Assembly (NCBI RefSeq): GCF_947493595.1
Contig: NZ_CANLRL010000003.1
Coordinates: forward strand, 434,001 to 498,000
DNA length: 64,000 nt
Direction: 5' to 3'
Origin: an uncultured Shimia sp.
GTDB taxonomy: Bacteria > Pseudomonadota > Alphaproteobacteria > Rhodobacterales > Rhodobacteraceae
Made by a program: the position numbers and the translations under genes. Below the pieces are notes generated by a model. The model saw only the letters and a program-made list of their open reading frames with translations. It ran no database searches and was not told the DNA's origin. Shown here piece after piece: positions 32,869 through 44,032 of this stretch; the stretch's first letter is position 1; each line of letters opens with the position of its first letter.

Positions 32869-33716
32869 GCTGGCGCGCGGTCACGGAAGCGGACCTTGCG
32901 TGGATTGAGCCGTTTCTGCGGGAGCATGTGCAGAGCTCGATGTTCTTTTTGAGTAATCTCAATGAGCATGGGATATGCGGCACTGCTGATCGCGCGATGC
33001 GTATTTGGGCTTTGGACGATGAGCGCAGGGGGCTTTTTGCCCTGTCCAATGGCGGCATGATCTTGATGCAAGCTCCGGATGCCACGAAAGAAGATTGGCA
33101 AGCGACACGTGCCTTTTGGGCGCAGCGGGAGCTGATTGGCTGTTTGGGAGACGGCGCGCAGGTAGCGCCGTTTTTTGAGGCGACGGGCATGGGCGACCGG
33201 CCGATGTCACTGAATGAAGACGAGCCGGGTTATTGGCTGGAGCTGGCGCAGCTCAAGGTGCCGGAGTGTGACGGGTTCAGCATGGTGCCGCTTGGCGAAG
33301 AGCTCTGGGCTTTGGCGGTGGAGTGGCGCACGGCCTATCATGGCGAGGTTCTGGGCACGCCGACACATAAATGTGCCGAAGTGGCAGCGCAGGATATTGC
33401 CCGCTGTATAGAACGAGACACGCACCGCATTTTGTTGAGGGATGGCGTGCCGGTTGCCAAAACCGGGTTTAACGCCACCTTGCCGGACACGGTGCAGATT
33501 GGCGGGGTCTATACGCCGCCGGAGTTGCGCGGGCAGGGGCTGGCGCGGCGGGCAGTGGCACTGCATCTGCAGGAAGCACGGGACAAAGGCGCGACGCGGG
33601 CCATTTTGTTTGCAGCCAATGAAGCGGCGGCGCGGGCCTATGAGTCTATTGGGTTTGAGCGCAATGGGACGTTTTCGTTGATGATGTTTATGGCGGACGA
33701 GGATGTGGAAGCGTGA
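32865..33716 (+). CDS. GNAT-family N-acetyltransferase
   Basis: A 283-residue two-part protein. The C-terminal half is a GNAT domain with the acetyl-CoA-binding motif A (GVYTPPELRGQGLARRAVALHL in two pieces) and the later NEAAARAYESIGFE. The N-terminal half is less conserved (FLREHVQSSMFFLSNLNEHG) and may be a degenerate second GNAT-like lobe, as in other double-domain members. Start GTG 32865 overlaps the rsmE stop, implying coupling. The substrate is unknown; small amines or peptides are possible. Confidence 0.88.
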   Translation: MSWRAVTEADLAWIEPFLREHVQSSMFFLSNLNEHGICGTADRAMRIWALDDERRGLFALSNGGMILMQAPDATKEDWQATRAFWAQRELIGCLGDGAQVAPFFEATGMGDRPMSLNEDEPGYWLELAQLKVPECDGFSMVPLGEELWALAVEWRTAYHGEVLGTPTHKCAEVAAQDIARCIERDTHRILLRDGVPVAKTGFNATLPDTVQIGGVYTPPELRGQGLARRAVALHLQEARDKGATRAILFAANEAAARAYESIGFERNGTFSLMMFMADEDVEA

Positions 33717-33775
33717 GTTTTCGGCACTTCTGCGTTGGAAAAGAAGGCAGCGACTGACCCTGGGTGGGTGCGATA

Positions 33776-33803
33776 GCGCCCTCCCGTGGGGAGGGTCGGG
33801 CGC
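33776..33803. repeat. G+C-rich extragenic palindrome
   Basis: CCCTCCC-GTG-GGGAGGG (33779-33795) is nested in GCGC ends. It lies in the 131-bp gap between the acetyltransferase gene and the next gene. No T-run follows, so it looks like a REP-type element rather than a terminator. Confidence 0.5.
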
Positions 33804-33847
33804 TGCCAGGCCTAGCGGCCCGGCGGAACTTTGAGGAGGCAAACGAA

Positions 33848-34357
33848 ATGACATTCATTCGACCTGAGGCCCGCGCGGCGGTGGCGCAGTGGCGGGAAGC
33901 CTTGGTGGGCGCTGCGGTGCTGCTGCTTGGCCTGTGGTGGGCCAGTGGTTTTGGTGTGATGAAATGGCTCGGCATTGGCCTGGTTGCGGTGGGCGCGGTG
34001 CTGATCGTGAGCGGTCTGCAACGTGGTCGGTTTCGGATTGGCAAAGGTGGTCCGGGCGTGGTGCAGGTGGACGAGGGTGAGGTGGCTTACTTTGGCCCGC
34101 TCAATGGCGGCAGTGTCGCCATTCGCAGCCTGAGCCGATTGGTGTTGGACGGGCGCAGCAAGCCTGCGGTCTGGGCGCTGTATCAACCGGGGCAAGCGCC
34201 GTTGCATATACCTGTAAATGCGGAAGGCTCTGATGCGTTGTTTGATGCCTTTGCCTCACTTGAGGGCATCCGAACGGAACACATGTTGGCCAAGCTCAAG
34301 GCCACGCCGGATCAACCGGTCGTGATCTGGGCCAAATCAGACCCCCGGTTGCATTGA
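33848..34357 (+). CDS. Small inner-membrane protein of unknown function
   Basis: A 169-residue protein; ATG 33848 follows AGGAGG. A short soluble head (RPEARAAVAQWREAL) precedes two membrane helices near 20-60 (GAAVLLLGLWWASGFG and GIGLVAVGAVLIVSGL). The remaining 110 residues form a likely cytosolic beta-rich domain, with FRIGKGGPGVVQVDEGEVAYFGP in two strands and a closing KATPDQPVVIWAK. The layout recalls proteins with membrane-anchored PH-like domains, but no family was recognised. It lies between rsmE/GNAT and gshA on the same strand. Confidence 0.8.
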   Translation: MTFIRPEARAAVAQWREALVGAAVLLLGLWWASGFGVMKWLGIGLVAVGAVLIVSGLQRGRFRIGKGGPGVVQVDEGEVAYFGPLNGGSVAIRSLSRLVLDGRSKPAVWALYQPGQAPLHIPVNAEGSDALFDAFASLEGIRTEHMLAKLKATPDQPVVIWAKSDPRLH

Positions 34358-34420
34358 CACCGGTAAAATTTACGATCACGACTACTGTCCCAAGCGAGTT
34401 TGCAGGAGCGGAGCAAGCCT

Positions 34421-35791
34421 ATGTCTATCCCACAGTCCGGCGGCGGGCCGATCGAACATCACGATCAGCTGGCTGAATATCTCAGCGATGGCTGCAAACC
34501 CAAAGAAGACTGGCGTATTGGCACCGAACACGAGAAGTTTGGCTATTGCAAAGACACGCTAAAGCCACTGCCATACGAGGGCGAACGCTCCATTTTGGCG
34601 GTGCTGGAAGGTCTGCGTGACGGGCACGGCTGGGCGCCGGTGGAAGAAGGCGGCAAGCTGATTGGGCTGGAAAAAGACGGCGCTAATGTGAGCCTAGAGC
34701 CCGGTGGACAGTTGGAGCTGTCGGGTGCGCCGCTGGAGACTATCCACCAGACCTGTGATGAGGTGAACCAACACCTGACAGATGTGAAAGACATCGCGGA
34801 TAAGATTGGTGTGGGTTTCATCGGTCTGGGGGCGGCGCCGATCTGGAGCCACGAGGATATGCCTTTGATGCCCAAAGGCCGCTACAAGCTGATGGACAGC
34901 TATATGGGCAAGGTCGGCACCATGGGCACAACCATGATGCGCCGCACCTGCACGGTGCAGGTGAACCTGGATTTTGCCAGTGAGCCGGACATGGTGCAAA
35001 AGCTGCGGGTTGCCTTGGCGCTGCAACCGGTGGCCAATGCGCTGTTTGCCAATTCGCCGTTTTTGGATGGCAAACCCAACGGAGTAAAATCCACCCGTGG
35101 CCTGGTCTGGCGCAATTTGGATGATGCGCGCACAGGTATGTTGCCGTTTGTGTTTGAGGATGGCTTTGGTTTTGAGGCCTGGGTGCAATATGCGCTCGAT
35201 GTGCCGATGTATTTTGTCTATCGCGATGGCACATACGTCAACGCGCTGGGCATGTCGTTCCGCGACTTCCTTAAAGGCGAGCTGCCTGCGTTGCCCGGTG
35301 AGAAGCCGACGCTGAGCGATTGGGCGGATCATTTGACCACCGCCTTCCCTGAGGCGCGGATCAAGAAGTTCATGGAAATGCGCGGCGCGGACGGTGGTCC
35401 GTGGCGGCGGCTGTGTGCGTTGCCGGCGTTCTGGGTTGGTCTGATGTATGATCAATCCTCGCTGGATGCAGCCTGGGATCTGGTGAAAGGCTGGGATGCG
35501 GAGACGCGTGAAGCCTTGCGTGTGGCCGCCAGTGAAGACGGGCTTCAAGCGCAGGTTGGCACCATCAAGATGCATGATCTGGCGCGGGAAGTGTTGAAGA
35601 TTTCCGAAGCGGGCTTGGTGGCGCGTGGCATGGCTGGTGCTGGCGGCTTGGTGCCCAATGAGACCCATTTCTTAAACGCGCTGAAAGAGAGCGTGGAGAG
35701 TGGCAAAGTGCCGGCGGATGAATTGCTGGAGCGCTATCACGGCGACTGGAACGGCGATCTGAGCCAGATCTACGGTGAGTATAGCTACTGA
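34421..35791 (+). CDS. gshA: Glutamate-cysteine ligase (GCS2/plant-like type)
   Basis: A 456-residue enzyme that joins glutamate and cysteine in the first step of glutathione synthesis. The protein starts MSIPQSGGGPIEHHDQL; the active-site stretch RIGTEHEKFGY, the SLEPGGQLELSGAP loop and MMRRTCTVQVNLDF match the alphaproteobacterial/plant GCS group. This type differs from enterobacterial GshA. ATG 34421 follows a purine-rich GGAGCGGAG. Glutathione also supports thiol detoxification, which may matter beside the methanethiol-forming genes at 38-43 kb. Stop is 26 bases from the convergent paralogue cluster. Confidence 0.93.
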   Translation: MSIPQSGGGPIEHHDQLAEYLSDGCKPKEDWRIGTEHEKFGYCKDTLKPLPYEGERSILAVLEGLRDGHGWAPVEEGGKLIGLEKDGANVSLEPGGQLELSGAPLETIHQTCDEVNQHLTDVKDIADKIGVGFIGLGAAPIWSHEDMPLMPKGRYKLMDSYMGKVGTMGTTMMRRTCTVQVNLDFASEPDMVQKLRVALALQPVANALFANSPFLDGKPNGVKSTRGLVWRNLDDARTGMLPFVFEDGFGFEAWVQYALDVPMYFVYRDGTYVNALGMSFRDFLKGELPALPGEKPTLSDWADHLTTAFPEARIKKFMEMRGADGGPWRRLCALPAFWVGLMYDQSSLDAAWDLVKGWDAETREALRVAASEDGLQAQVGTIKMHDLAREVLKISEAGLVARGMAGAGGLVPNETHFLNALKESVESGKVPADELLERYHGDWNGDLSQIYGEYSY

Positions 35792-35816
35792 TTTTGGCGA
35801 AAGGGACGCCGCTGGC

Positions 35817-36257
35817 TTAGAGCAGGTGGCGTTCCTGGTTTCCATGATCAGGGAAATATTTGAGGCACTCTTCTGGCAAGTTGAGTGTTGCGAGCATTTC
35901 TGGATAGCCGGGCACAACATGTAAGCGGATCGGGATGTTTTTGGCCGCGATGAGGCCCTCATACATGAGGATCGCCGGCTCAGACACTTTTGTGCTGCCA
36001 ACCAAACAAATGTCGATTGGGCTGTCTAAGCTGCCATGCGCTTCGTTTGAGCGCCTGGTAAAATCATTCATTTCGTCATAGCCAATCTCAAAAGAGGTGA
36101 CCCGGAAAAAATCGCTGACCTCGGACATGCCGGGTTGGTAGTCTGGGCGCTGGTAGCAGGCCTGTGTTTCGTCAAACAGTTCCTGAGGTGTGACCCGGCC
36201 CGAATAGACAATGTGGACAAGGTTTAAGTCAGGGATTGGCGTAAGGCTGACGGGCAT
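35817..36257 (-). CDS. Paralogue 1 of a five-gene tandem family (unknown function)
   Basis: A 146-residue protein without signal peptide or membrane helix. It starts MPVSLTPIPDLNLVHIVYSG and ends GNQERHLL. Shared marks with the four genes upstream are a YSGRVT-type strand, PGMSEVSDF, GYDEMNDFT, VVPGYPEML and a C-terminal E-x-HLL. The predicted order strand-helix-strand-helix-strand-helix-strand recalls SpoIIAA/STAS-like folds, which is an inference. It lies 20 bases after paralogue 2 and is the last gene of the minus-strand array, convergent with gshA. It is closest to paralogue 2 in sequence and length. Confidence 0.85.
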   Translation of the reverse strand: MPVSLTPIPDLNLVHIVYSGRVTPQELFDETQACYQRPDYQPGMSEVSDFFRVTSFEIGYDEMNDFTRRSNEAHGSLDSPIDICLVGSTKVSEPAILMYEGLIAAKNIPIRLHVVPGYPEMLATLNLPEECLKYFPDHGNQERHLL

Positions 36258-36277
36258 CAGGGGCTTTCAGGTGGCGG

Positions 36278-36718
36278 TCAAAGTAAGTGGCTTTCCTGCC
36301 GACAAAAGTCGGGCAAGTGTTGCAGGCCTTCAGGGGGGAGGTTCAAAACGGCCAAGACTTCTGGGTAGCCAGGCACAACATCCACATGGAAAGGGGCGTT
36401 GCTGGCGGCGGAGAGGTTTTCATACATCGCCATGGCGGCGGCGGTGACCTGGGTTTCGCCAACCAGAACCAACTGAATGGGCGTGGTCACGTCGCGGTAG
36501 GTTTCCATGGTTTTCTGAGCGTAAGCCATCATCTCGTCAAAGCCGATATCCACTTCGGTTACCTGGGACAGGTCGTTCACCGCGGGCATGCCCATGACAA
36601 AGGCGGGGTTTTGATGGCGCTTGGTTTGCTCGTCAAAAAGATCCTGGATGGTCACCCGTCCCGAATAGACATTATGCACAATTTTTAACTCGGGAATAAC
36701 GGAAACGCTGATCGGCAA
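36278..36718 (-). CDS. Paralogue 2 of the five-gene tandem family (TTG start)
   Basis: With TTG 36718 as start the product is 146 residues, exactly the length of paralogues 1 and 5, and begins MPISVSVIPELKIVHNVYSG like them. AAAAGGA lies 7 bases before that TTG. The ATG at 36760 and TTG at 36778 give longer forms without a ribosome site and without family similarity. Conserved elements are YSGRVT, MPAVNDL, DIGFDEM, VDVVPGYPEVLAVLNLP and QESHLL at the end. It is about half identical to paralogue 1 by eye. Function unknown. Confidence 0.83.
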   Translation of the reverse strand: MPISVSVIPELKIVHNVYSGRVTIQDLFDEQTKRHQNPAFVMGMPAVNDLSQVTEVDIGFDEMMAYAQKTMETYRDVTTPIQLVLVGETQVTAAAMAMYENLSAASNAPFHVDVVPGYPEVLAVLNLPPEGLQHLPDFCRQESHLL

Positions 36719-36835
36719 TTCAAAATCCTTTTCAGCAGTTTGCGGCACATTGGATACCATTTCAAGCGTAGCGGGCAATATGGTTCGAGCGCGCCACCTA
36801 GGGGCGTTTGGGGGCGGCGAAGGCTGAGACCCGCT

Positions 36836-37291
36836 TTAGGAGGACATGCGGGTGAGCAAATGCGCCTCACTTTGACAGTCCTCAGGGAACAGTTCGATGG
36901 TTTCCGGTGGCAGGTCCAGAATGGCAAGCACGTCCGGGAAACCCTGCAGGATGTCGACGCTGGCCATGCCGTCTTCTAGATCGGACAGTGACCGGAACAT
37001 CTCCGCCAGCCAGGTGCTTTGTTCGTTGCTACAAACAATGAAGATATGCACCGGTTCGCCGCGTTCGCGGTGGCGTTCTTGCACCCTTGCGGTGAAGGCC
37101 TTCATGTCGTCAAAGCCAACATCAAAATCCACAAGGTTGAGCATGTCCAAGACCATATGCATGCCGGGATAGAAGTCTGGGTTGGCGTGCAGGGCTTGGG
37201 ACGAGTCGGTGAATTCTTTAAACGTCACGCAGCCTGTGAACCGGCTATAGACCAGCGGTGCTGGGGTTAGCAGGTGGCTTTCAATCGGCAT
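36836..37291 (-). CDS. Paralogue 3 of the five-gene tandem family
   Basis: A 151-residue protein from ATG 37291, reading MPIESHLLTPAPLVYSRFTG. It belongs to the same family but to the subgroup with paralogue 4: both have RERG/RDRG, HIFIVCS-x-EQ, WLAEMFR and a five-residue extension after E-x-HLL (here TRMSS). DVGFDDMKAF and GFPDVLAILDLPPETIELFPEDC match the common core. The cytosolic cysteines in IVCS and EDC are shared with paralogue 4. Gaps of about 117 and 146 bases on either side may carry separate promoters. Function unknown. Confidence 0.85.
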   Translation of the reverse strand: MPIESHLLTPAPLVYSRFTGCVTFKEFTDSSQALHANPDFYPGMHMVLDMLNLVDFDVGFDDMKAFTARVQERHRERGEPVHIFIVCSNEQSTWLAEMFRSLSDLEDGMASVDILQGFPDVLAILDLPPETIELFPEDCQSEAHLLTRMSS

Positions 37292-37437
37292 GGACACTCC
37301 TTAGTTTGGCGCCGTGTCGGTTCTGGCCGGGGTGCACCGGCTGCTCTCAGGATGCGAGGAGCACCCGCCTGTGTCAAGTGGTCGCAGGCGCGGCGGTGAT
37401 GGACGTTGGGTCGGAGCGTGTTGTGCTGTGTGGCGTG

Positions 37438-37893
37438 CTAAGAGCTCAGACGGTTCAGTAGGTGAGACTCGGTTTGGCAATCCTCGGGGAAGAGTTTGAT
37501 GGTGTCCGGCGGCATGTCGAGCAGGGCAAGGACTTCGGGAAAGCCGTGCAGGATTTCAATGCTGGCCAGACCGGGTTCCAGGTCAGCCAGTGCACGGAAC
37601 ATCTCGGCCAGCCACCTGCCCTGTTCGCTGCTGCAGACAATAAAGATATGCACTTGCTTTCCGCGGTCGCGATGGCGGTTTCGGGTCAGAGTGGCAAAAT
37701 CCCTCATCTGGTCAAAACCGATGTCAAAATCGGTGACATCGAGCATGTCGACAACAGTGTGGGTGCCGGGTTTGAACCCTGGGTCTGCGTGCAGCGCCAA
37801 AGAGGATGTGGTGAGTTCATCCATGGTGACGTGGCCGGAAAACCGTCGGTAGGCCAGTGGGGCGGGATTTAGGATTTTGTTCTCAATTGGCAT
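37438..37893 (-). CDS. Paralogue 4 of the five-gene tandem family
   Basis: A 151-residue protein from ATG 37893, reading MPIENKILNPAPLAYRRFSG. It is clearly a recent duplicate of paralogue 3 (shared HIFIVCSSEQ, WLAEMFRALADLE, FPEDCQTESHLLNRLSS). DFDIGFDQM and EILHGFPEVLALLDMPPD carry the family core. Upstream of it lies a 16-bp palindrome (38024-38039) and a GACCGTG/CACGGTC hairpin (37955-37971), suggesting its own regulation. No ligand-binding or catalytic motif is recognised. Confidence 0.85.
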   Translation of the reverse strand: MPIENKILNPAPLAYRRFSGHVTMDELTTSSLALHADPGFKPGTHTVVDMLDVTDFDIGFDQMRDFATLTRNRHRDRGKQVHIFIVCSSEQGRWLAEMFRALADLEPGLASIEILHGFPEVLALLDMPPDTIKLFPEDCQTESHLLNRLSS

Positions 37894-38023
37894 GAGCATC
37901 CTTGGTCAGTTGGTCCGTGGTGCTGCGGAACATACGGTTGGTCCAGCATGGAAGGACCGTGTCGCACGGTCAAGTGACCCCTGCGGCACCTTGGGGAGAC
38001 TGTTTACACCACCTCCATTTAGT

Positions 38024-38039
38024 ATTCCAAAATTGGAAT
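38024..38039. promoter_or_regulatory. Palindrome upstream of paralogue 4 (candidate operator)
   Basis: ATTCCAA-AA-TTGGAAT is a perfect 7-bp-arm palindrome in an A+T-rich patch. On the minus strand it sits between a TTGCAT hexamer and a TAAATG hexamer, a possible promoter spacer. It lies 131 bases before the paralogue 4 ATG. Confidence 0.45.
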
Positions 38040-38064
38040 GCAATGTCGGTGTGGCAAGCAGACC

Positions 38065-38505
38065 TCAGAGCAGATGGGTTTCATCCAGACAATGGGCGGG
38101 AAGCTCTGCGATTTGCTCTTCGGATAGGTCCAATCCGGCAAAGATCTCCGGATAGCCGGGCATGACGTTGATGTTGACGTTGCTGTTCATGGATTCGGCA
38201 AAAGCGATGTACATTTCGGCGATGGAAAAACCGAGTTTGTTTTGGTCCAGCAAGCACAGGTTGAGAGGTTTGGGGTTGGCGCGGTGGAACTCTGTATAGA
38301 CAGTGGTGAATTCCAGCATGTCGTCATAGCCGGCTTGCATGTCTGTCACACCGCGAAAATCGCCCACTTCGGTCATGCCGCGGATGTAGTCGGGGTGTTG
38401 GTACATGCCATTGAGTGCTGTCCAGAGTTCGCCCGGCCCAACCGTGTCATATAGCTCAACATGAATGAGGGCGGCTTTGGGCAGGAGTTTGGCGCGAACT
38501 GGCAA
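38065..38505 (-). CDS. Paralogue 5 of the five-gene tandem family
   Basis: A 146-residue protein, the most diverged of the five. It starts MPVRAKLLPKAALIHVELYD and keeps GMTEVGDFRGVTDMQAGYDDM, IAEMYIAF, NVMPGYPEIFAGLDL and the terminal CLDETHLL. The usual YSG-RVT is replaced by LYDTVGPGEL. It is the first gene of the array, 97 bases downstream of the mdeB-type gene on the same strand, so it could be transcribed with the methionine-catabolic genes. Function unknown. Confidence 0.84.
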   Translation of the reverse strand: MPVRAKLLPKAALIHVELYDTVGPGELWTALNGMYQHPDYIRGMTEVGDFRGVTDMQAGYDDMLEFTTVYTEFHRANPKPLNLCLLDQNKLGFSIAEMYIAFAESMNSNVNINVMPGYPEIFAGLDLSEEQIAELPAHCLDETHLL

Positions 38506-38602
38506 GCGGGATCCTCTTAGGCTGGCGTTGGATCAGCATGCGGAACAGGGGGCTGCGCCGTCAAGAGGTGGGCCGCGCAGCACGGGGCTGCGCAGCGTGG
38601 CT

Positions 38603-40975
38603 TTAGGCTTGGGGTTGCAAGCTGCGACCAGCGGTCAAAGCGTTGATGCGGGACACAATGGTTGCGGCGTCCAGACCGTGATGGCGGTAGAGATCGCCGA
38701 TGGTGCCGGTTTGGCCAAAGTGCTCCACCCCAAGCGGCAATGTTTGGTGACCCTGTACGGCGCCGAGCCAGCTGAGCGTGGCCGGGTGGCCGTCGATCAC
38801 CGTCAGCAGGCGGCAATGTGGCGGCAGATCACACAAAAGCCGCTCGATGTGGCTTTGGGCCGACATTTGCCCGCGCGCACGGGCACGTTGGGCGGCGGTC
38901 CAACCGGCGTTGAGGCGGTCGGCTGAGGTGACGGCCAACACGCCGATGTCGCGGCGGTCATTGGCGATTTGTCCGGCGGCTTTGATGGCTTCCGGCGCGA
39001 CGGAACCCTGGTAGGCAATCACCACCTCGCAGTTGGGACCGGGTTTGCGCAGCCAGTAGGCGCCGTCGATGGCACCTTGCTTGAAGGCATCATCATGGCG
39101 TTTGCCGGGTTGCTCGATAGGGTTGGTGGTGAGGCGGAGATAGACGGAGCCGCCGGTTTCGTCGCGCAGCCAGGTGCGCTCGTCTGGGTCGCCTTCGCCG
39201 TCGCGTTGCAGGTAGTCAAAGGCCCATTGCATGAGTACGGCCAGCTCATCGGCAAAGGCAGGCTCAAACGAGGCCAAACCGTCCTGCGACATGCCGATCA
39301 ATGGTGAGGCGATGGATTGGTGCGCGCCGCCTTCGGGGGCGAGGGTCACGCCAGAAGGGGTGCCGACCAGCAGGAAACGGGCGTCTTGGTAGCAGGCGTA
39401 GTTGAGCGCATCGAGGCCACGGGAGACAAAGGGATCATAGACGGTGCCGATGGGGATAAGGCGTTTGCCGAACAGGGAGTGGGAAAGGCCTGCGGCCCCC
39501 AGCAGGAGCATCAGGTTCATTTCGGCAATGCCTAACTCGATGTGCTGGCCCTCCGGCGTGAACTCCCATTTGGCTGTTGAGGGAATGCGGTGCTCGATGA
39601 AGGCATCGGCTTGGGCTTCGCGGGCAAAAAGCTTGCGGCGGTTGACCCATGGGCCGAGGTTGGTGGTGCCGGTCACATCGGGCGAGGTGGTCACGATGCG
39701 GGACGCCAGCGCGCTGTCGCCTTTGGAGAGGTCATCGAGGATCTTGCCAAAAGCCATTTGCGTGGAGGTCTCGCGGTCGCTGTCGAGTGAGATTGCAGGC
39801 ACAGGCAGTTTGGCATCGGAGAAGCGGCGTGGGCCTTGGGCAAAGAACGGCACTTCAGACAGAAAATCGCGCAGGGCGGCGGGGTCGGTGACGGTGGCCA
39901 TCGGCTCCCATTCCTGACCTTCGGCCACACCCATGTGTTTTTGCCACGTGGCCATCTGCGTTTTGTTCATCAGACCGCCGTGGTTGTCTTTGTGGCCTGC
40001 AATCGGCGTGCCCCAGCCTTTGATGGTGTAGGCCAGAAAACAGGTGGGGCGGTCGTGGTCGATGGCGGCGAAGGTCTCCGCCATGGTTTCCACACAGTTG
40101 CCGCCGAGGTTTTCCATCAGTTCGGCCAGCTCTTCGTCGCTGCGCCGGTCCAGAAGTGCTGTGACGTCGCCTTGGTCGCCCAAGTCGTCCATCAGGTGTT
40201 TGCGCCAGACTGCGCCGCCCATGAAGGTCAGCGCGGAGTAGTCTTGGTTGGGGCAGCTGTCGATCCAGTCGCGCAGTTTGTCACCGCCGGGTTCCGCAAA
40301 GGCGGCGCGTTGCAGGGCACCGTATTTTACGCGCACCACGTCCCAGCCAAAGGCGTCAAAGATCTTTTCGACGCGTTCAAACAGGCCCTCGCGGACAATA
40401 CCGTCGAGGCTTTGGCGGTTGTAGTCGATGATCCACCAGGTGTTGCGCAGGTCGTTTTTCCAACCCTCTTGCAGGGCCTCATAGACGTTGCCTTCGTCCA
40501 GTTCCGCATCCCCCACCAGTGCAACCATGCGGCCCTGCGGCGCGTCTGAGCCCCAGTCTTTGGCGGTGATGTAGTCTTGGATCAGCGAGGCAAAGGAGGT
40601 GATCGCCACGCCAAGACCCACGGAGCCGGTGGAGAAATCCACATCGTCGATGTCTTTGGTGCGGCTGGGGTAGCTTTGCACGCCGCCAAAGCCGCGGAAG
40701 TTTTCCATTTTCTCGCGGGTCTGATTGCCCATCAGGTATTGCATGGCGTGAAAGATCGGCGAGGCGTGGGGTTTCACGGCAAGGCGGTCTTCGGGCTTGA
40801 GCGTGGCAAAGTAGAGCGCGGTCATGATCGAGACCATGGAAGCCGAGCTGGCCTGGTGGCCGCCGATCTTGATGCCGTCTTCTTTAGGGCGGATATGGTT
40901 GGCGTTGTGGATCATCCAATGGGACAGCCACAGCAGGCGTTGTTCGATGGTCTTCAGATGCTGGGTGTCGGTCAT
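38603..40975 (-). CDS. mdeB: AceE/MdeB-type homodimeric 2-oxoacid dehydrogenase E1 (transketolase-like)
   Basis: A 790-residue thiamine-diphosphate enzyme laid out like AceE. The first third has GGHQASSASMVSIMTAL and the TPP motif GDAELDEGN...IIDYNRQSLDG, as in homodimeric pyruvate dehydrogenase E1. The later pyrimidine domain has HIELGIAEMN and LIPIGTVYDPF. In Pseudomonas putida the neighbour of methionine gamma-lyase, MdeB, is such an E1 acting on 2-oxobutyrate; the same neighbour (mdeA) and Lrp regulator are present here. I infer oxidation of 2-oxobutyrate toward propionyl-CoA; pyruvate is also possible. E2 and E3 partners must come from elsewhere. Confidence 0.85.
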   Translation of the reverse strand: MTDTQHLKTIEQRLLWLSHWMIHNANHIRPKEDGIKIGGHQASSASMVSIMTALYFATLKPEDRLAVKPHASPIFHAMQYLMGNQTREKMENFRGFGGVQSYPSRTKDIDDVDFSTGSVGLGVAITSFASLIQDYITAKDWGSDAPQGRMVALVGDAELDEGNVYEALQEGWKNDLRNTWWIIDYNRQSLDGIVREGLFERVEKIFDAFGWDVVRVKYGALQRAAFAEPGGDKLRDWIDSCPNQDYSALTFMGGAVWRKHLMDDLGDQGDVTALLDRRSDEELAELMENLGGNCVETMAETFAAIDHDRPTCFLAYTIKGWGTPIAGHKDNHGGLMNKTQMATWQKHMGVAEGQEWEPMATVTDPAALRDFLSEVPFFAQGPRRFSDAKLPVPAISLDSDRETSTQMAFGKILDDLSKGDSALASRIVTTSPDVTGTTNLGPWVNRRKLFAREAQADAFIEHRIPSTAKWEFTPEGQHIELGIAEMNLMLLLGAAGLSHSLFGKRLIPIGTVYDPFVSRGLDALNYACYQDARFLLVGTPSGVTLAPEGGAHQSIASPLIGMSQDGLASFEPAFADELAVLMQWAFDYLQRDGEGDPDERTWLRDETGGSVYLRLTTNPIEQPGKRHDDAFKQGAIDGAYWLRKPGPNCEVVIAYQGSVAPEAIKAAGQIANDRRDIGVLAVTSADRLNAGWTAAQRARARGQMSAQSHIERLLCDLPPHCRLLTVIDGHPATLSWLGAVQGHQTLPLGVEHFGQTGTIGDLYRHHGLDAATIVSRINALTAGRSLQPQA

Positions 40976-41044
40976 TGTCTGGCTCCGGTGGGCAATTGGG
41001 GAGAGTGGCCTTGGCGCAAGTGTAGCACGCCAAGGCCGAAGGGC

Positions 41045-42259
41045 TTATTCCGCGGCGATGCGGGTGGGCAGAGCGTCGAGCGCCTGGGCGAGATCGGCGA
41101 GGATGTCCTCGACTTCTTCGAGACCCACAGACAGGCGCACGAGGCCTTCGGTGATGTTGTGCGCGGCACGTTCTTCTGGCGTGTAGGTGGAGTGGGTCAT
41201 GGAGGCCGGGTGCTGGATCAGGCTTTCCGCGTCACCCAGAGAAACCGCCCGCTGGATGAGGTTGAGGTTGTTCATCAGGGCGATGCCTGCGTCGTGGCCT
41301 TCGACCAGCTCAAAGGCAATCATCGCGCCGGGCTTGTCCATTTGGCGCTCTGCCAGCTCATGCTGTGGGAAGCTTTTGAGACCCGGGAAAGAGACGGAGG
41401 CGATGGCCGGATGGCTTTCGAGCCATTCCGCAACGGTGATGGCGGAAGCGACGTGCCGGTCCAGACGCAAGGCCAGGGTTTTTAATCCGCGCAGGATCAG
41501 CATGGCGTTAAACGGTGCCATCACTGCGCCGGTCATGTCTTTCATTCCCACAAGACGGATGTCGGCAATTTGGTCGGCGGTGCCGACGACCAGACCGGCC
41601 ACCACATCACCGTGACCACCGAGGTATTTGGTGGCGGAGTGCAGAACAATGTCTGCGCCGAGCTCGATAGGACGGGTCAGGTACGGCGTGGCGTAGGTGT
41701 TGTCGACCACCACAGTGGCGCTCACGCTGTGCGCAATCTCAGAGGCGGCGGCGATGTCGACCAGACGCATGTTCGGGTTGGCCGGGGTTTCAAAGTAGAC
41801 CACGCGGGTTTTTTCAGAGACAGCTTCGCGTAGATTTTCGATGTCGGTCATGTCGACGTGGGTGATGGTCACGCCCCATTTGGCCAAGCCGTGCTGCATG
41901 AAGGCAAAGGTGCAGCCGTATAGCGTTTTGTCGACAATGAGTTCGTCACCGGGGGAGAGCAGGGTCCAGAGCGTGGCGGTGATGCCGCCCATGCCGGAGG
42001 CCAGAGCAAGACCGGCTTCGGCGCCTTCGAGTGTCGCGATGCGCTGTTCCAGCAGATCGCAGGTTGGGTTGGAGATGCGGGAATAGATGTGGCCCACGCG
42101 GTCACCAGCAAACATCTCCCCACCCGCTTGAGCGGTTTCAAAAGTGAAGGTCGAGGTGAGGTGCAGCGGCGGGGTCAGCGCACCTTCGTTGTCCTGCGGA
42201 TCATAGGCGTGGTGGATGGCGCGGGTGGCGAAGCCTTGCGGCGTGTTGCGTTTGGTCAT
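41045..42259 (-). CDS. mdeA: L-methionine gamma-lyase
   Basis: A 404-residue PLP enzyme that splits methionine to methanethiol, ammonia and 2-oxobutyrate. All known determinants sit at the numbering of the P. putida enzyme: Tyr59 and Arg61 (IYSR), Tyr114 and the lyase-specific Cys116 (LYGCTF), Asp186, PLP Lys211 (SATKYLGGHGD) and Lys240-Asp241. Cys116 separates it from cystathionine beta/gamma-lyases. ATG 42259 was chosen; the frame opens further up to 42439 but that part overlaps the promoter and mdeR. It is divergent from mdeR and 69 bases upstream of mdeB. Confidence 0.95.
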   Translation of the reverse strand: MTKRNTPQGFATRAIHHAYDPQDNEGALTPPLHLTSTFTFETAQAGGEMFAGDRVGHIYSRISNPTCDLLEQRIATLEGAEAGLALASGMGGITATLWTLLSPGDELIVDKTLYGCTFAFMQHGLAKWGVTITHVDMTDIENLREAVSEKTRVVYFETPANPNMRLVDIAAASEIAHSVSATVVVDNTYATPYLTRPIELGADIVLHSATKYLGGHGDVVAGLVVGTADQIADIRLVGMKDMTGAVMAPFNAMLILRGLKTLALRLDRHVASAITVAEWLESHPAIASVSFPGLKSFPQHELAERQMDKPGAMIAFELVEGHDAGIALMNNLNLIQRAVSLGDAESLIQHPASMTHSTYTPEERAAHNITEGLVRLSVGLEEVEDILADLAQALDALPTRIAAE

Positions 42260-42318
42260 GGGAGAGTCCTCGCGTAAAACTGTTGGGGTCAGTTTGAGTG
42301 AGGATGTGGGGCAGGTGA

Positions 42319-42365
42319 TTGCGAAAAATAGCGCAAAAGGATAGATTGTTGGCATAATCTGCCAA
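42319..42365. promoter_or_regulatory. Two inverted repeats in the mdeA-mdeR intergenic (candidate Lrp-type operators)
   Basis: TTGCG-AAAAATAG-CGCAA (42319-42336) and TTGGCA-TAATC-TGCCAA (42349-42365) lie between the divergent starts. Both have A+T centres and short outer dyads, as do Lrp/AsnC sites. The second touches the mdeR ribosome site AAGGAG. Confidence 0.5.
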
Positions 42366-42376
42366 GGAGTCACCAG

Positions 42377-42832
42377 ATGGATGCCAAGGATCGCCAGATC
42401 ATCCGGGCTTTGCAAGCCAATGGCCGCATGACCAACCAAGATTTGGCAGAGGCGGTGAACCTGTCACCCAGCCCCTGCTTGCGGCGGTTGCGCAATCTGG
42501 AAGGCTCTGGCGCGATCACCGGCTATGGCGCGGAGGTGGATGCCAAGGCCTATGGCCTGCCGGTAACAGTCTTTGTGCGGGTGAAGCTGGAGCGGCACAA
42601 TGAGGAGGATGTGCAGCGGTTCGAGCGCGCAGTGATGTTGATTGACGAAGTGCTGGAGTGCCATATCCTGACCGGCGCAACCGATTATCAGCTGCGCGTG
42701 GTGGTCAGTGATCTGGAGGCTTATGAGGAATTCATCCGCCTGCGCATTCATCCGATTGGCGGGATAGCCAGCATCGACACCACTTTTGCCTATGGCACGG
42801 TGAAAAAGACGGCGGTGTTTCCGGCTTTATAG
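42377..42832 (+). CDS. mdeR: Lrp/AsnC-family regulator of methionine catabolism
   Basis: A 151-residue regulator: helix-turn-helix at 1-60 (MDAKDRQIIRALQANGRMTNQDLAEAV read in parts, then SPSPCLRRLRNLEGSG) and the RAM effector domain (LECHILTGATDYQLRVVVSDLEAYEEFI). RAM domains bind amino acids; methionine or 2-oxobutyrate is the likely signal from context. It is divergent from mdeA, as mdeR is in P. putida, where the family member activates the lyase gene. Its stop overlaps the convergent uxuA stop region by 6 bases. Confidence 0.9.
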   Translation: MDAKDRQIIRALQANGRMTNQDLAEAVNLSPSPCLRRLRNLEGSGAITGYGAEVDAKAYGLPVTVFVRVKLERHNEEDVQRFERAVMLIDEVLECHILTGATDYQLRVVVSDLEAYEEFIRLRIHPIGGIASIDTTFAYGTVKKTAVFPAL

Positions 42833-44032
42833 ATCGGCGCTGAGCGCGGTCATCACACCGCGCAGCTCCGCCAGCCCTTTGGTGCGGCCGATCAGCGGGT
42901 AGCCGGGCAGCGTGTCACTGTGCAGGTCATATAAGATGTGCTGGCCATGGTCAGGGCGCATGGGAATTTCCCAATCTGAGCGGCCTTCTGCCTTGCGGCG
43001 GGCCTCTTCTTTGAGCAGGGCGCGGATGGCGATCACCATGTCGGTTTGACCTTCCAGATGCATAGACTCATGGAAGCTGAGTTTATTCCCATCCGAGGGG
43101 CCCTGGCGCAGGGTGTTGCGCAGATGAGTGAAATGGATGCGGGGGCCAAGGCGGGTGATGAAGTCAGTAACGTCGAAGGTCGGGTTTACGCCAAGAGAGC
43201 CGGTACAAAGCGTGGCGCCATTGGCGGGGCTGTCGATGGCAGAAAGGATGGTTTCGTAGTCTTCGGTTGTGGACATGACGCGCGGCAGGCCCAAAAGCGG
43301 GAACGGCGGGTCATCCGGGTGGCAGCACAGGCGCATACCGTGTTCTTCAGCTACGGGCACCACTTCGGACAGAAAGTCGATCAGATTGGCGCGCAGCTGG
43401 GCGGTGTCGATGCTTTTGTACAGGTCCAGTAGGGCAAGGACGTCGTTGAGGGTCCAGCTGTCGTTTGCGCCGGGAAGTCCGGAGACAATGGTGTTGACCA
43501 AGCGCGCTTGTGCGGTGTCATCCATGGCGTTGAACCGGGCGGAGGCCGCTTGGCGGATGGCGGGGCTGTGATCATCTTCAGCTGAGGGGCGGGCCAGCAG
43601 GAAGAGGTCAAACACCGCAAAATCCACCACATCAAAGGCCATAGCGGTGCCGCCGTGGGCCATGCGCGCAGCAAGATTGGTGCGGGTCCAGTCGAGCACT
43701 GGCATGAAGTTGTAACAGACGGTCTGAATGCCGCAGCCCGCAAGATTGTGCAGGCTCTCTTTATAAGCGGCGATATGGGCGGCGTAACCAGCGCCTTTGG
43801 TTTTGATTACTTCGGAGACCGGCAGGCTTTCGACCACATCCCAGTTCAAGCCCGTGGGCTGGGGTGTGGGTTTCGCAATTTCGGCCTGTCGTTGGCGGAT
43901 CTCACTTTTGGTCCAGGGGGTGCCCGGTGGAATGTGATGCAGTGAGGTGACCACGCCTTGAACACCCACCTGTGGCAGGTCGTAGATGTCGATGGGGTCA
44001 GCTGGACCAAACCAGCGCCAAGTTTGCTTCAC
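42827..44032 (-). CDS. uxuA: D-mannonate dehydratase
   Basis: A 401-residue TIM-barrel enzyme that dehydrates D-mannonate to 2-keto-3-deoxygluconate in glucuronate degradation. Metal and substrate residues are visible in LCCHPDDPPFPLLGLPRV, LCTGSLGVN, FTHLRN and MRPDHGQHI (Cys, His and Asp ligands). The start reads MKQTWRWFGPADPI, the family standard. It is convergent with mdeR and overlaps it by 6 bases. With uxaC, 665 bp away in the opposite direction, it makes two steps of the uronate pathway; fructuronate reductase and KDG kinase/aldolase are not in this window. Confidence 0.95.
   Translation of the reverse strand: MKQTWRWFGPADPIDIYDLPQVGVQGVVTSLHHIPPGTPWTKSEIRQRQAEIAKPTPQPTGLNWDVVESLPVSEVIKTKGAGYAAHIAAYKESLHNLAGCGIQTVCYNFMPVLDWTRTNLAARMAHGGTAMAFDVVDFAVFDLFLLARPSAEDDHSPAIRQAASARFNAMDDTAQARLVNTIVSGLPGANDSWTLNDVLALLDLYKSIDTAQLRANLIDFLSEVVPVAEEHGMRLCCHPDDPPFPLLGLPRVMSTTEDYETILSAIDSPANGATLCTGSLGVNPTFDVTDFITRLGPRIHFTHLRNTLRQGPSDGNKLSFHESMHLEGQTDMVIAIRALLKEEARRKAEGRSDWEIPMRPDHGQHILYDLHSDTLPGYPLIGRTKGLAELRGVMTALSADL

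Follow-up and report, generated by a model that had tools for sequence, protein, structure and literature searches.

A 64,000-nucleotide stretch of the genome of an uncultured Shimia sp. (contig NZ_CANLRL010000003.1, positions 434,001 to 498,000; hereafter the window) contains a tandem array of five minus-strand genes at 35817-38505, whose products are small soluble proteins of a single family, predicted to be SpoIIAA-like. We named these genes g1 (35817..36257, 146 amino acids, ATG start), g2 (36278..36718, 146 amino acids, TTG start), g3 (36836..37291, 151 amino acids, ATG start), g4 (37438..37893, 151 amino acids, ATG start) and g5 (38065..38505, 146 amino acids, TTG start). Coordinates, strand, lengths and TTG starts are as an earlier reading of the DNA letters (the original prediction) had given them. 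The start codon of g2 is TTG in three of five orthologues and ATG in the other two. We calculated the ratio of nonsynonymous to synonymous substitution rates (dN/dS, NG86 method) for each of the five orthologous groups, which span three to six species, leaving out one interrupted g5 copy (L042). The median is 0.09-0.11 in every group, as compared with 0.03-0.06 for flanking genes; hence, g1-g5 are real genes. Their third-position G+C content is 0.62-0.70, similar to that of gshA (0.69) and slightly below that of mdeA and mdeB (0.75-0.76), and an Rfam scan of 33500-43500 gave no match at an expect (E) value of 1 or below.

An end-to-end alignment of the five proteins has 19 invariant columns, and all ten pairs score well above 200 shuffles each (z 16.3-40.1). 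This bears out the common ancestor proposed in the original prediction, which a failure to align would have refuted. Pairwise identity ranges from 28-29%, in several pairs with g5, to 64% (97 of 151 residues) between g3 and g4. We extended the comparison to 34 array copies, an alignment that omits one copy cut by a contig end (L046) and two copies broken by a stop codon (L042 5828-6265 and L044 6860-7297) in the related genomes G159 and G163. M1, G59, G117, P136 and L145 are invariant; D49, M98, P119, A123, E142 and H144 are each present in 33 copies, and C139 in 30. The motifs quoted in the original prediction are present as G59-[YF]60-D61, G117-[YF]-P119 and E142-x-H144-L-L. The last of these belongs to a short conserved C-terminal tail, FPxxCxxExHLL, and mean column entropy is 1.07 bits in the tail (135-146) versus 1.83 bits at 1-134. 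No catalytic or phosphorylatable residue stands out; serine or threonine occupies two of the 34 x 7 cells at columns 57-63.

We found no strong match between the array proteins and any characterised family in Pfam or NCBIfam, in line with the claim that the family was unrecognised. For the five window proteins, Pfam returned nothing useful at E ≤ 10, including neither PF11964 (DUF3478, SpoIIAA-like) nor STAS (PF01740). All 34 array proteins together matched seven Pfam families, one member each, which is chance level, and none matched PF11964 at E ≤ 1. Among 48 proteins of the wider family described below, Pfam likewise gave nothing useful, with PF11964 in only one (E 0.014). Scans of the array proteins against NCBIfam and PHROGs were equally unproductive, PADLOC has no family that claims them, and a sequence search of the PDB gave only chance-level matches. 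None was found on plasmids, searched with g4 and with one relative, or in a scan of viral contigs, and no publication on the family was among those listed in literature searches. Profile comparison was more informative. The pooled family (array and wider) aligned with seven PF11964 domains at an hhalign score of 32.3 (E 4e-5, probability 70%), and 0 of 50 column shuffles scored as high (best 14.0). With the array alone the probability was 17% (E 0.0014), again with 0 of 50 shuffles as high, and comparison with five domains gave the same picture more weakly. The score against seven STAS domains, in contrast, was 13.6, a value reached by 4 of 50 shuffles. The nearest sequence kin thus appear to be PF11964-type proteins rather than STAS domains, and the kinship is weak. 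The window genome also encodes a separate protein with two tandem PF11964 domains, near a contig end (G000:C14:106-789).

AlphaFold2 produced models of g1 (mean predicted local distance difference test score, pLDDT, 83.9; predicted template-modelling score, pTM, 0.78; 34-row alignment) and of g5 (pLDDT 89.6, pTM 0.84; 27 rows). The order of elements in both is beta1-beta2-alpha1-beta3-alpha2-beta4-alpha3-beta5-alpha4, with alpha2 beginning at G59-[YF]-D and alpha4 at GYPE; PMC2954212 describes the same order for 2q3l and 2ook, which have a SpoIIAA-like fold. In Foldseek searches the first match of both models was SpoIIAA (1th8_B; E 4.8e-4 for g1 and 1.0e-3 for g5), followed by STAS and DUF3478 structures, 2q3l included. 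In VIA-align, g1 scored Z 8.8 against 2q3l_B (3.5 Å over 113 residues) and g5 scored Z 8.8 against SpoIIAA 1thn_B (2.9 Å over 110 residues). Because the two models, the element order and many SpoIIAA and STAS entries agree, g1 and g5 are predicted to have a SpoIIAA-like fold, as had been guessed from strand and helix order alone.

A profile of the five proteins detected a sixth, distant paralogue in the window genome (G000:C1:792941-793342; L006 1303-1722, minus strand; E 8.8e-12), which adjoins mmsA (TIGR01722 above cut-off). Relatives are spread through the Rhodobacterales. They occur in 36 of 149 genomes sampled from the taxonomic family, in 70 of 244 sampled from the order and in 9 of 190 sampled from the class; of these nine, two belong to the window's genus. 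We found mmsA directly 5' of the family gene in 35 of 50 loci (35 of 49 distinct loci, since L147 repeats L057), the 50 being the best-scoring search matches rather than a random sample. The sixth paralogue of the window genome is among these loci. The two genes are on the same strand in all 35, and in 28 the open frame begins no more than 250 nucleotides past the end of mmsA. These mostly single-copy relatives make up an uncatalogued mmsA-linked family. Tandem pairs are found repeatedly at mmsA (L021, L024, L062, L150) as well as at gshA. No other five-copy array was found in the 244-genome order sample, where the genome with the most copies beyond the genus, G312, has five in scattered positions.

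Within the window's genus, 23 of 25 genomes have at least one family member somewhere. We could read the 3' flank of gshA in 23 of the 25, the window included; we left out G169, which has no gshA match and whose mdeB-linked copy runs off its contig, and G162, in which gshA is partial. Of these 23 genomes, 10 have copies at the 3' end of gshA: five in the window genome (G000), G168 and G159 (one interrupted), six in G157, G164 and G163 (one interrupted), two in G154, G155 and G161, and one in G160. The local amplification that had been proposed is supported. A gshA tree did not join the two groups of array genomes with support, G164 covering only 44% of its columns. Gene order 3' of gshA differs widely from one genome to another within the genus (L104-L125), which gives the site the look of a variable spot.

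The array is old. In a tree of the 34 copies and seven distant relatives, copies of g1 from different species group together (six rows, 99/99), as do those of g2 (eight rows, two genomes having additional duplicates, 100/98) and g5 (three rows, 100/100; g5 of the window has a long branch). For g3, the orthologues from six genomes are separated from g4 as a clade (100/98); g4 is placed next to g3 at lower support (90/82), and g3 and g4 are jointly supported at 100/99. One of the distant relatives, L057, was placed among the array copies, with a very long branch. Since clades of paralogues cross species, the array duplications, that of g3 and g4 included, predate the split of these genomes, and the tree argues against the original view of g3 and g4 as a recent pair. 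Median dS is 0.86-1.71 for the array versus 0.53-0.60 for both flanks (33842-35791 and 38603-42259); array copies are constrained, yet their silent sites change at about twice the rate of those in the flanks. We conclude that the array belongs to an uncatalogued SpoIIAA-like family, with a genus-restricted and long-lived tandem array; the fold itself is well known.

On one side of the array is gshA, encoding glutamate--cysteine ligase (34421..35791, plus strand, convergent with the array; TIGR01436, 644.7 bits, above cut-off). Upstream of gshA is a gene for a 171-amino-acid protein (33842-34357) whose only Pfam match falls below threshold; its counterparts in five relatives are 94-97% identical to it. 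On the other side is an mdeB-like gene for a 2-oxoacid dehydrogenase E1, a thiamine-diphosphate enzyme (38603..40975, minus strand; PF17831 and PF00456 above cut-off, below the NCBIfam aceE cut-off), then mdeA for methionine gamma-lyase (41045..42259, minus strand; NF005695 at 739.1 bits and TIGR01328 at 616.8 bits, above cut-offs). An mdeR-like gene for a Lrp/AsnC-family regulator is divergent from mdeA (42377..42832, plus strand; PF01037 and PF13404 above cut-offs), and beyond it in the window are uxuA and then uxaC.

The block mdeB-mdeA-Lrp/AsnC-uxuA, at 38603-44032 in the window, lies beside the array only in genomes with an expanded array. These four genes adjoin all six arrays of five or six copies and none of the four loci with one or two. 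Among eight named records, mostly Shimia, six combine mdeBA with copies of the array, one of these records being truncated by a contig end, and the other two have gshA-linked copies without mdeBA. A close mdeA (96% or more) is present in 7 of the 25 genus genomes, namely the six array genomes and G169, whose contig ends inside g5; in two more, with an mdeA of 80-82%, we found no array-type copy. Because mdeBA adjoins expanded arrays only, the neighbour common to large and small loci is gshA, not mdeA. The link to the methionine gamma-lyase operon, drawn in the original prediction, is therefore valid for expanded arrays and breaks down at the smaller gshA-linked loci. Since uxaC directly follows the array copies in G155, G160 and G161, the block was probably inserted later between array and uxaC, a loss of the block from the smaller loci being conceivable but less likely.

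Alignments of orthologous upstream regions revealed conserved elements of the type TTG-N20/21-CAnnCT. In the window, promoter-like elements lie, all on the minus strand, upstream of g2 (36737..36765, TTGAAA-N17-CAAACT, identified by conservation only), g3 (37349..37377, TTGACA-N17-CATCCT, with CTTGAC upstream of all six g3 orthologues), g4 (37945..37973, TTGACC-N17-CATGCT, conserved in the window and L040 and not in L041 or L044) and g5 (38535..38564, TTGACG-N18-CATGCT, conserved in the window, L040 and L044). The pattern occurs 16 times on both strands of the 64-kb window, four of them being these. A related pattern is present in 21 of 33 upstream regions, against a shuffle mean of 0.46 and maximum of 3, although it was defined on the regions in which it was counted and the shuffles kept base composition only. 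In the window g1, which begins 20 nucleotides after g2, has lost the element that its five orthologues keep. A scan for the plain sigma-70 consensus did no better than chance, with 2 sites against 1.3 expected, and a generic scan found no terminator between array genes on the coding strand. These negative scans count against separate transcription units and the cross-species footprints count for them. The idea of separate promoters holds up for g2-g5 as far as conservation goes and fails for g1. RpoH-type promoters, as described in PMC3441632, seem less likely: neither the spacing nor the expected -9 base fits well. A housekeeping-type reading of the elements would be simpler.

Taken together, these observations lead us to favour, tentatively and at somewhat short of even chances, a model in which the array proteins are soluble, non-enzymatic SpoIIAA-like binding modules with diverged cores, a common docking tail and, for the most part, their own promoters. 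The array itself grew from one or two gshA-linked copies. Its products would work by binding, without catalysis or a phosphorylation switch; the diverged cores may recognise different partners or ligands, and the common FPxxCxxExHLL tail may dock on one shared partner. That partner could plausibly be, from gene order alone, an enzyme of the neighbouring thiol or short-chain acyl-coenzyme A (CoA) metabolism. Four of the five genes are probably transcribed from their own promoters, so the proportions of the paralogues could be set separately. MdeB probably makes propionyl-CoA in methionine breakdown. Short-chain acyl-CoA metabolism is hinted at by the association of the relatives with mmsA and by the mdeB neighbour, thiols by the gshA link.

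Several observations weigh against this model. The thiol link is weakened because gshA is convergent with the array, and so not co-transcribed with it, and because 13 of the 23 gshA loci have no array, so that gshA does not need it. The tail cysteine is replaced by glycine in g1 of three genomes, the window's included, and by arginine in one further sequence, and the last six tail residues (141-146) have low mean pLDDT (50 in the g1 model and 59 in that of g5). Residues specific to each paralogue group are spread evenly, with no concentration in the alpha2/alpha3 lid or any other element; hence, ligand diversification in the lid is not supported. Finally, fold scores of Z 8-9 barely exceed the level of unrelated models. 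In VIA-align, Sec14/CRAL-TRIO domains and segments of CtpA proteases likewise come out at Z 7-8, a level that can reflect a common arrangement.

The same structural matches are the basis of another possible, though doubtful, interpretation, by analogy with CRAL-TRIO proteins: the array proteins may be carriers or sensors of hydrophobic ligands, with a nonpolar pocket covered by a lid of alpha2 and alpha3 and with a different ligand for each paralogue. Both 2q3l and 2ook are among the best fold matches of the two models, and PMC2954212 argues for a nonpolar pocket in 2q3l; a CRAL-TRIO-like reading has been proposed for the DUF3478/SpoIIAA-like proteins of Shewanella. The even spread of group-specific residues outside as well as inside the lid tells against ligand carriage, as does the lack, in all 34 array sequences, of the tryptophan that DUF3478 proteins have in the switch region of alpha2.

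It is also conceivable, albeit unlikely, that repeated tandem duplication at variable spots produced the array as a by-product, its copies being weakly selected and partly redundant. Variation in copy number (0, 1, 2, 5 or 6), the stop codons in G159 and G163, the recurrence of pairs at mmsA and the elevated dS count in its favour. Such an origin is hard to reconcile with a dN/dS of about 0.1 in every group, with orthologues of g1, g2 and g3 in all six array genomes compared, or with the invariant tail residues and conserved upstream elements.

A more specific proposal, which we regard as quite improbable, is that SpoIIAA-like modules of this family are dedicated protein partners of metabolic enzymes across the Rhodobacterales. 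MmsA is a propionyl-CoA-forming methylmalonate-semialdehyde dehydrogenase. The mmsA-linked copy would serve MmsA; a relative would have moved beside gshA in one lineage, gained the ExHLL tail and diversified to five or six copies, and the resulting set would tune thiol and methionine breakdown through GshA, MdeA and MdeB. If true, non-enzymatic regulators of enzymes would here form a small combinatorial code. Least probable of all, and very unlikely, is that the proteins are SpoIIAA/RsbV-type anti-sigma-factor antagonists that switch partners via serine phosphorylation, since the SpoIIAA structures at the top of both Foldseek lists are offset by the lack of a serine or threonine at the STAS DSSG position, by the absence of profile kinship with STAS domains or a Pfam STAS match, and by the lack of an anti-sigma kinase gene among the named neighbours, the rest of the genome not having been searched for one.

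The model of binding modules with diverged cores and a common tail is the one we retain. The SpoIIAA-like fold gains a sequence family that is not in the catalogues, and the analysis provides two strong genomic clues to its role: a position 3' of mmsA in most loci examined, and a position at gshA in one genus. It also describes a rare bacterial tandem array whose members, under strong purifying selection, have stayed distinct across several species. With the conserved tail and the mmsA link as starting points, the role of these small binding domains can be tested directly.

Among catalogued families, the array proteins seem closest to DUF3478. PF11964 domains (2q3l, 2ook) share the strand and helix order of our models, and by the profile comparison described above they may be distant kin. 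They differ in having a conserved Trp-Asp-Asp in the alpha2 switch region, whereas by eye there is no tryptophan at columns 57-75 of the array sequences, and the array proteins have an extra C-terminal tail. STAS proteins such as SpoIIAA and RsbV have the overall fold in common with the array models, but where anti-sigma antagonists have the DSSG phosphoserine site, the array proteins carry [DEQ]-[IVAT]-G, with one threonine at columns 57-58 in 34 sequences (register set by hand). CRAL-TRIO/Sec14 domains align partially with the array models (125-139 residues), are longer than the array proteins and show no sequence evidence of kinship. SiaC (DUF1987; 7e6g, 6kko, 6k4f) is also among the fold matches, at weak E values of 0.018 to 0.28 and Z 6.1 (6kko_C). 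The mmsA-linked relatives of the Rhodobacterales, by contrast, are true homologues of the array (hhalign E 1.4e-31 over 139 columns); they are mostly single copy and stop at about residue 139, without the ExHLL tail that the array proteins share.

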